IMG/VR virus record: IMGVR_UViG_3300018426_000204
Coordinates: 1 to 20,731 of that record
Direction: 5' to 3' (one strand)
DNA length: 20,731 nt
From: a virus
Each line of letters opens with the position of its first letter. Position 1 is the stretch's first letter. The notes beneath the pieces were generated by a model. The model did not search any database and was not told the DNA's origin. It was given only the letters and a program-made list of their open reading frames with translations. The position numbers and the translations under genes were made by a program. Positions 8,086 through 10,116 of this stretch are shown here, piece after piece.

Positions 8086-10116
8086 ATGGCATACTATAAT
8101 ATAGGAGATTCTTTCAAGTGGTTTATGGCTCGAGTTGTCGAGATAGATCCAAAAGAAGATCCACAAAACATGAGATATTTAGGTCGTGTAAAAATTAGAG
8201 TTTTACATGACCAAACTGGTGAATTAGGCAAAACTGTCAAAACTTTGGGTATAAAAGACAGTGACTTATTGTGGGCGTGGCCAATTTCTTCTATACAGTC
8301 AGCGTCTTTGAGCTATAGAAAAATAGCAGAACTTGAAGAATTTGAAACACCATTTTGGATCGACGCGGTTGGTACATCACCAACAGGAATCGCTGTCGGT
8401 ACTTATGTGTTTGGCTTTTATCTCGACGGCCATGAAGGAAACATACCGGTTATCTTTGGTACATATCACAAAGATTCTATGTATCCTGAACCGCCGACTG
8501 AACAAGGACATGAGTTTTTACAAATTAGGGGGCCAGACGGACCTACATTCGAATATCAAGATGTTTCAGCTCTTGCTAAAGGCTGGCATGAAGACAAGAA
8601 GAGAGACACAGCTCTCGATGGTGGTATAGCCCAATCGCTAGAGATGAAAAATGTGACAGCGCCAGGAAAAGGTGGTCAAACATTACCAAAACATCCATAT
8701 CTGATAGGACCACAACAACTCGTCAAACAGCCACCGTCTGATTATGATACACTTTGGCCTCATAACACTGTTCATACGACTAAGTCAGGTCATGCAATTG
8801 AGCTAGACGACACACCAGGACATGAGAGGATACATTGGTGGCATCGATCTGGTTCATATGAAGAAGTATCAAATGGACCAGCAGCGACTAACCGAGACGG
8901 TTTAGAAAAACCATGGCCTGACGCAATGGGTCCTGTTGACTGGCTAGAACCAGCAAATAATCATGATCCTTCGGCTCCTAAAGCTAGTTGGTCGGGAAGA
9001 CGAGTAAGAAAAACAACTGAAAGCGAATATAATTTTGTTTTAGGCAATAAAGAAACATACGTTGGTAGTTCATTAAAATTAGAGATAGCTAAAAATTCTA
9101 CCACGGGTATCGGTGGTAACAAAGTAGAAACAACAGCCAATAATGCTTATATTGCAATTGGTTATTATCCTCGAACAGCAAATAACGATTTAAGTGGTTT
9201 ATCTGCTCGATATCAATTATTAGACATTTACGAAAAAGATGCGGATAAGAGAGACGGAGTAAATAAATTACCCGACAATAATAAGTTTAATTTTTATATT
9301 GATGTAGCGAACAATATGGCTACTTCTGTAGGTTATGTTTGGGATAATTCTAGAGAATTAAAAACAAAGGAAGAAAAAAATTGGTTTTTAGATGTAGCAA
9401 ATAATTGCTCAGTTACAGCAAATAATAATTATTATCTCGCTGTCGGTGTTGGTCATGAGAAAGAAAGGGAAAAACAAGATACAGATCAAACGAACTTTTA
9501 TACTGATGTTGTAAATAATTTAGCTATTACAGTAGGATATAATCCCGATAATTATAGGGTTGTGACAGCTACTGATAAGACTAATTTTTATACTGATGTT
9601 GCAAATAATTTAGCTATCACAGTTGGTTATACAGCAGATAACTATAGAGACATCACAGCTGATGATAACAAAAATTGGTTTTTAGATGTAGCAAATAACT
9701 GTTCAATCGCAACTAAAAATAATTATTATTTGGGTGTAGGCGTTGATCATACAAACGAAAGACAAAAACAATCATCAGACGCAAGTAGTTTGTTTATAGA
9801 TGTAGTCGGAGATATGGCTACAAATGTTGAAAAAAATTCTGTCACACGAATTAAAGGTAATCATACACATAAAGTGTTAGGCAATAGCAGAATGACTGTA
9901 AATTATAGTCTAGACATGGCTGCTATGTCATTAAATATTTCAACGCTGACTGGTACTAAATTTAATAGCGATGTGACGGTAGGTTCTCAAAATGCTAACT
10001 ATAATTTATATGTAAACGGATCGTTAGGCACTTCGAAAGGTGCATCGGGTTCATTTACTACACCGACTGGTAGAACAGTCACGGTTGTCAACGGAATAGT
10101 AACGAGTATCGTATAA
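8086..10116 (+). CDS. 5: Baseplate spike protein gp5 without a lysozyme domain
   Basis: The protein has 676 residues; T4 gp5 has 575. Residues 1-130 form the OB-fold domain (RVVEIDPKEDP, YLGRVKIRVLHDQTGE, GTYVFGFYLDGHEGNIPVIFGTYH). No glycosidase domain like that at T4 174-342 is present, and no Glu/Asp/Thr lysozyme motif was found. Instead, SGHAIELDDTPGHERIHWWH (234-253), typical of spike proteins with an attached beta helix, leads into a long Asn/Val/Gly-rich beta-prism region (about 320-640). This includes about six repeats of the form FY.DVANN.A..VGY..DN.R (about 398-582). The tail end, PTGRTVTVVNGIVTSIV, is a compact beta tip. The trimer pierces the outer membrane. The gene overlaps the next one as TAATG. 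Confidence 0.85.
   Translation: MAYYNIGDSFKWFMARVVEIDPKEDPQNMRYLGRVKIRVLHDQTGELGKTVKTLGIKDSDLLWAWPISSIQSASLSYRKIAELEEFETPFWIDAVGTSPTGIAVGTYVFGFYLDGHEGNIPVIFGTYHKDSMYPEPPTEQGHEFLQIRGPDGPTFEYQDVSALAKGWHEDKKRDTALDGGIAQSLEMKNVTAPGKGGQTLPKHPYLIGPQQLVKQPPSDYDTLWPHNTVHTTKSGHAIELDDTPGHERIHWWHRSGSYEEVSNGPAATNRDGLEKPWPDAMGPVDWLEPANNHDPSAPKASWSGRRVRKTTESEYNFVLGNKETYVGSSLKLEIAKNSTTGIGGNKVETTANNAYIAIGYYPRTANNDLSGLSARYQLLDIYEKDADKRDGVNKLPDNNKFNFYIDVANNMATSVGYVWDNSRELKTKEEKNWFLDVANNCSVTANNNYYLAVGVGHEKEREKQDTDQTNFYTDVVNNLAITVGYNPDNYRVVTATDKTNFYTDVANNLAITVGYTADNYRDITADDNKNWFLDVANNCSIATKNNYYLGVGVDHTNERQKQSSDASSLFIDVVGDMATNVEKNSVTRIKGNHTHKVLGNSRMTVNYSLDMAAMSLNISTLTGTKFNSDVTVGSQNANYNLYVNGSLGTSKGASGSFTTPTGRTVTVVNGIVTSIV
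9280..9830 (+). repeat. Internal tandem repeat array of gp5 (about 30- and 38-residue units)
   Basis: Six units follow one another, each starting with an aromatic residue, then (I/T/L)DV(A/V)NN and a VG or related turn. Two neighbouring units starting at 9497 and 9587 are nearly identical in DNA with an exact 90-base period. A longer unit (NWFLDVANNCS, then NNYYL.VGV) occurs twice, 294 bases apart (9381 and 9675). The order is short, long, short, short, long, degenerate. All keep frame, so the array sets the length of the spike shaft. Confidence 0.8.

Follow-up and report, generated by a model that had tools for sequence, protein, structure and literature searches.

The window, a 20,731-base fragment of a virus from IMG/VR, carries a T4-type baseplate cluster, and no RNA families or tRNAs were found within it. 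Six of the seven ORFs scanned gave tail-family matches (tube cap, gp53, 'tail protein', gp5, gp25 and gp6). The ORFs neighbouring gp5 match PF11091, PF11246, PF04965 and PF21379, all above the Pfam cut-offs, together with phrog_230, 232, 261 and 219, which confirms the baseplate-cluster setting of gp5 beside the tube-cap, gp53, gp25 and gp6 genes. The ORF at 6798-8081 matches phrog_350, a family named only 'tail protein', and has no Pfam match above cut-off; at the equivalent position phage phiM12 has a 'tail protein' annotated with a gp27 note. The gene order of phiM12 is gp48-53-'tail protein'-gp5-gp25-gp6, with gp25 separated from both gp5 and gp6 by other genes. Among the cultured matches listed for the gp6 of the window, those of Caulobacter phage Cr30 (39%) and of Sinorhizobium phages (36%) rank highest, and one further cultured record was counted at 60-80% identity outside that list.

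The sequence-only reading had taken the ORF preceding gp25 by one gene for a gp5 homologue, and this assignment holds. The N-terminal OB domain is present (PF06714 Gp5_OB, 32.7 bits against a cut-off of 25), the ORF matches phrog_430 at 3.3e-43, and its PDB matches are the KP1 and T4 gp5 proteins (1.7e-9 to 3.4e-7). PF22178 Gp5_trimer_C scores 21.3 bits, under its cut-off of 30.9. The product is probably the needle protein that a T4-like bacterial virus uses for piercing its host. Pfam at E ≤ 0.1 gives only these two families and thus no lysozyme domain between the OB domain and the shaft; the protein is therefore not classed as a tail lysozyme, and any peptidoglycan-cutting activity would belong to another protein. 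The full-length sequence matched 955 phage records, none of which reached 80% coverage. The features of the gene are collected in Table 1.

Table 1. Features of the gp5-type gene and the gene that follows it (positions in the window)
Feature	Position	Strand	Remarks
gp5-type central spike gene, 676 aa	8086..10116	+	OB domain, linker, repeat shaft, tip
First shaft unit, 73 aa	9073..9291	+	octads (LKLEI onwards) and a long insert; present once; position conserved
Unit A1, 30 aa	9292..9381	+	counterpart FITDVANN... in relatives
Unit B1, 38 aa (A plus one octad)	9382..9495	+	73% DNA identity to B2, lag 294
Unit A2, 30 aa	9496..9585	+	TRF period 90; self-match
Unit A3, 30 aa	9586..9675	+	additional unit between A2 and A3 in L001 and L010/L099
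Unit B2, 38 aa	9676..9789	+	counterpart of the last 38-residue unit of relatives (..NN-Y/F..)
Cap/tip region	9790..10113	+	octads continue, then GSFTTPTGRTVTVVNGIVTSIV; tip types exchanged between relatives
Mainly helical protein after gp5, 226 aa	10116..10796	+	in two exchange pairs of relatives the genes after gp5 change along with the tip

Phased on 'FYxDV', the array reads A1-B1-A2-A3-B2, with unit spacings of 30-38-30-30-38 residues. An A unit has 30 residues (90 nt) and a B unit 38 (114 nt), that is, an A unit plus one 8-residue step (24 nt). The same step is that of the T4 gp5 β-helix motif VxGxxxxx, in the account of it given in PMC4576200. The 8-residue excess of the B units and the sum 90 + 114 + 90 = 294 explain both the pattern of long and short units and the distance of 294 bases at which a longer unit had been seen to recur, which is that between B1 and B2. 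An exact 90-base period had also been claimed and is borne out at 9496-9668 (TRF: period 90, 1.9 copies, score 234). The alternation of long and short units needs amending: both kinds exist, but their true order is A-B-A-A-B. To call the units nearly identical in DNA was too strong, as A2 and A3 match at only 71/90 bases at lag 90 (41/45 in the first 45 nt and 30/45 in the second) and B1 and B2 at 73%. The repeats inside the gp5-type gene are nevertheless real and far above chance: the best in-frame 90-nt self-match of the shaft domain reaches 72/90 (lag 294), while 300 codon shuffles of that domain reach a maximum of 52/90.

A single-chain model of the shaft (26 aligned sequences) has strands of five residues, FYTDV and LAITV, in both A2 and A3, 8 and 22 residues apart, and strands at two of the three octads in B1 and B2. 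Its mean pLDDT is 63.2, with ten-residue means of 70-91 for residues 161-320 and values below 50 for the first ~100 residues. Foldseek found no match at E ≤ 0.001 in the PDB and viral sets (best E 1.8 and 0.051). In a structural alignment with 28 chains, all seven with Z ≥ 2 are central spikes, the best match being T4 gp5 (1wth_A, residues 439-570; Z 4.2 over 115 residues, rmsd 4.9, a weak match). The octad steps are of 8 residues in sequence and partly so in the single-chain model, with PF22178 remaining below its cut-off. The model is compatible with a gp5-type shaft bearing surface inserts, without amounting to proof of one.

It had been proposed that the number of units may vary between strains, and a comparison of relatives (loci numbered L) found neither a constant repeat number nor even divergence between the units. 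The contig of L001 (3300023105_001725) differs from the window at only 4 of 4,080 aligned bases (0/297 upstream, 2/2,031 in the gene and 2/1,755 from the stop codon on), yet between its A2 and A3 stands exactly one additional unit of 90 bases. This unit, at 1798-1887, is preceded by 1.8 kb and followed by 2.3 kb of one and the same contig. Its informative sites are of A2 type at 33-57, of A3 type at 65-77 and again of A2 type at 84-87, and at sites 46 and 48 it has the allele of L002. It is a mosaic of A2 and A3, such as recombination or conversion between units would produce. The second case, L010/L099 (3300020055_000249), has three tandem A units, the extra one agreeing with the A2 of L002 at 89/90 positions; the units flanking it are 99% and 100% of window type, and from A3 on only 4/4,856 bases differ from the window. 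A mosaic origin was also considered for this unit and is weakened by its single-base difference from the A2 of L002, so that it shows the gain of an A2-type unit only. The extra units of the two cases, which are two separate IMG/VR records, have their first 64 bases in common. The unit number of the window recurs in L002 and L003, whose hub parts are 91% and 84% identical to its own in DNA.

In all, the A2-A3 stretch is visible in three near-identical sequences and two of these have the extra unit, a count made on metagenomic assemblies, in which unit number within repeats is open to mis-assembly. L099 begins within the array and lacks one base near its edge, and L098 (99.95% over 6,001 bases) starts in the array and was left out of the unit count. 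Four near-relative contigs end within the gp5 gene, three of them at or inside the array (L004/L018 end there, L010/L099 and L012/L098 start there; the fourth is L014). Ends of this kind would be expected where a variable repeat makes assembly graphs branch; they are too few for a test.

The duplications had also been called recent. This holds for the further unit in L001 and L010/L099 but not for the A2/A3 pair of the window, which is shared by relatives that are 84-91% identical in the hub part; near-identity and recency of that pair are ruled out by the 71/90 match and by its presence in L002 and L003. Compared with 16 more distant proteins, B1 and B2 are mutual best matches and so are A2 and A3, both pairs being lineage-specific copies that predate the split from L003. 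The history that had been imagined, duplication of a block followed by local copying, stands in part. Local copying fits the mosaic in L001; a block copy is compatible with the lag of 294 and with the mutual best matches. Between the window and L002, 33 array codons but only 6 residues differ, and between the window and L003, 58 codons against 10 residues. Differences that are mostly synonymous suggest, on this informal count, that the units themselves are constrained.

Unit number also varies on a wider scale. The first alignment found 79 loci; 55 of them were translated and, with L010, L012 and the window, make up 58 proteins; nine truncated at contig ends were excluded, and the remaining 49 reduce to 38 distinct ones. 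The distinct gp5 relatives range from 262 to 751 residues and the A/B units from none to seven; shafts of 127-154 residues have no insert-bearing unit in 8/8 loci by pattern search. Within the class of relatives whose second unit is of the A1 kind and whose last unit has 38 residues, the number of interior units goes from two to five: two in L019 and L034 (where the finder split two units off phase), three in the window, L016, L017, L021, L025, L028 and L031, four in L001, L022, L024 and L030, and five in L033 and L036.

Conservation was assessed on 43 distinct A-type units of 29-32 residues from 15 of 20 proteins. All 43 have the Arg of the insert, 91% have the closing Asn and 93% the strand pair's second Asn; Gly is found in 43/43 and Asp in 98%. 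The unit finder required [DE][VIL] and Gly, so that the conservation of Gly and of Asp/Glu-Val/Ile, being partly demanded by the pattern, is weaker evidence and only the insert Arg and the closing Asn count as free evidence. A profile of 32 units matched eight of ten records scanned at E ≤ 0.01, always at the gp5 gene and including contigs of 160 and 164 kb, and gave no match in the records of L048 and L066. It finds four A-type units in L001, three each in L002 and L003, and three in L010, whose contig is without the A1 part.

When 48 loci were clustered by the DNA preceding the array, nine clusters of at least two members had units. Total shaft length is constant in five of the nine, three of which hold only sequences 99.8-100% alike; length change is therefore not general. 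In the other four it varies, and outside the clade of the window this variation goes with tip exchange or with divergence. The best DNA identity between units is 0.77-0.91 in this clade and at most 0.67 elsewhere (first 81 nt, phase by pattern); the phase of the cluster unit finder slips in some loci, and the unit numbers were taken from other counts.

The array is also where tips change. For L022 and L032 the alignment runs at 95.9% identity over 4,524 columns and breaks off within the array, at gene base ~1,521 (residue ~507). Past this breakpoint blastn aligns nothing in the tip or in most of the genes that follow it, until similarity returns near the start of gp25 (92.5% over 120 bases and 98.5% over 801 bases). 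L043 and L044 break at residue ~394, again inside the array, and similarity returns at 97.4% over 1,074 bases. In both pairs, otherwise ~95% identical, the tip and the following genes are replaced together. A third pair, L022 and L030 (90.5%), diverges at residue ~544, and beyond this point only a 69.6% match in the next gene precedes the end of the L030 contig.

The ORFs between gp5 and gp25 encode 228 + 246 residues in L022, 328 + 240 + 156 in L032, 306 + 223 + 109 in L043 and 231 + 135 in L044; in the window there is the single 226-residue protein. A protein of 193-328 residues immediately follows gp5 in 21/21 loci (the window and 20 further), a set outside which stand L045, L049 and L063 with shorter ORFs at this place. 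The 226-residue protein, with a mainly helical single-chain model (mean pLDDT 62.6) and weak PHROG tail/tape-measure matches, may be a tip partner or chaperone. The ORFs just before gp25 in L022 (5838-6578), L032 (6900-7370) and L044 (2598-3005) combine beta-repeat-like sequence with a His-Thr-His motif close to the C-terminus, features reminiscent of metal-bearing spike tips; the window is without such an ORF between gp5 and gp25. The gp5 C-termini of L045, L049 and L063 are of the 'APxIDxN' or 'SRIDLN' type, against 'GSFTT..TVTV.NGI.TSI' in the window, which makes at least two kinds of tip in the family.

Unit-number variation and the abrupt exchange of tips inside the array, both observed directly, as are the module anatomy and the mosaic extra unit, lead us to regard the shaft as a recombining module array. 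In the model that we favour, an A unit would consist of two octapeptide strands of a trimeric β-helix and a conserved insert of ~14 residues that would project from the shaft as a surface loop, a B unit having one octad more. Tandem units of similar DNA would let unequal recombination and gene conversion add, remove and blend whole units in frame, while crossovers inside the array would link the conserved hub part to various tips, each with its adjacent genes. That the spike shaft of these T4-like myophages is built of strand-plus-insert modules, and that tandem recombination alters their number, blends them and exchanges tips, we consider probable. The trimeric β-helical fold, the surface position of the inserts and the piercing function in this virus are inferred. 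In T4 gp5, 23 strands take up 100-110 Å (PMC4576200, PMC3004832), and by analogy each A unit, with two strands, would lengthen the spike by ~0.9-1.0 nm. Unit number might set shaft length or suit different envelopes, as the sequence-only reading had it. A bolder version makes the array an evolvable ruler, by which needle reach and tip would be tuned to host envelopes over short time scales, the reach in 30-residue steps by unequal recombination and the tip by crossovers in the same array that swap tip-plus-neighbour cassettes; we hold this to be rather unlikely as it stands.

The variation could also be a neutral by-product, tandem homologous units recombining and small changes of length being tolerated without selective effect. 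Among the 48 clustered loci, whole-unit change with the same tip between near-identical sequences is confined to the clade with the highest DNA identity between units (0.77-0.91; elsewhere 0.67 or less), as this account would have it; against it speak the mostly synonymous codon differences of the array (33/6 and 58/10 for L002 and L003) and the span of none to seven units across the family. We give it somewhat less than an even chance. Slightly less credit goes to a doubtful third account, in which the dosage of loops would count rather than length: the insert (G-W/Y-x-P-..-R-..-D-..-N) would be the functional part, present three-fold per unit along the shaft, and every extra unit would bring further sites at which envelope sugars, a factor in the periplasm or another protein of the baseplate could be bound. 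The insert is indeed conserved across lineages beyond the need of a free linker, in its Arg and closing Asn above all, but Pfam matches no binding domain in gp5, and the unit profile gave four hits against the PDB (E 0.42-1.4), none of them a spike. Gain of a unit adds strands too, so that length and loop number are inseparable in these data. Finally, chimeric assembly of co-existing strains at the repeat might have created the extra unit, given that three tandem 90-nt units are longer than a typical short read, that the contigs of L099, L098 and L004 end at or inside the array and that the extra unit of L010 is an L002-type A2, but this is improbable with the unit found in two separate records that share its first 64 bases, lying deep within one contig in L001, and with differences of two to five interior units among relatives that it does not explain.

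Spike length is usually regarded as a fixed property of a phage. With a recombining module array as the shaft, simple recombination may be enough for the needle to change in length or surface, and hub and tip modules appear to be recombined within the array. Near-identical sequences one spike unit apart would be natural matched variants for testing the part of length or decoration in envelope crossing.

We found no description of unit-number variation in a gp5 shaft in the open PMC literature, outside which most subscription-journal papers lie. Among 50,697 cultured-phage records, no tblastn match at E ≤ 0.1 (low-complexity filter on) was obtained for the shafts of the window, L022 and L043 or for the 226-residue protein, and 47 stretches of bacterial and archaeal genome contigs matched a search pattern, 0/47 encoding a relative. 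In pelagimyophages and cyanomyophages gp5 is reported to diverge much more than VrlC, a divergence put down tentatively to adaptation to the host cell wall (PMC7029224); that account, in its parts on gp5, concerns protein clusters rather than repeat units, unit number or tip exchange. The VgrG spikes of type VI secretion are weak structural matches (PDB 6SK0 and 6SJL, Z 3.5 and 3.4) and are absent from the matches listed in the sequence searches of gp5. The BACON proteins of crAssphage resemble the present case as tandem repeats in a phage tail-associated protein that grow by internal duplication and undergo horizontal exchange (PMC6949934). However, they concern another protein and another domain, with no match in our gp5 at E ≤ 0.1 (Pfam), and the order of their main array is described there as evolutionarily stable, whereas here spike octad modules differ in number.

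The closest known system is T4 gp5 (PDB 1K28, 1WTH), with which, on the features set out in PMC4576200 and PMC3004832, the window spike shares the N-terminal OB domain, the baseplate cluster and a C-terminal region of octad repeats, the 'V-x-N-N' of its units taking the place of the 'V-x-G-N/D' of T4. It departs from T4 gp5 in that Pfam finds no lysozyme domain and in having directly downstream, as the single ORF before gp25 in the 20.7-kb fragment, a gene without a PAAR match in Pfam. Its octads are interrupted after every second or third by the conserved insert of ~14 residues and, unlike in T4 gp5, the number of units so formed differs among near-identical sequences.
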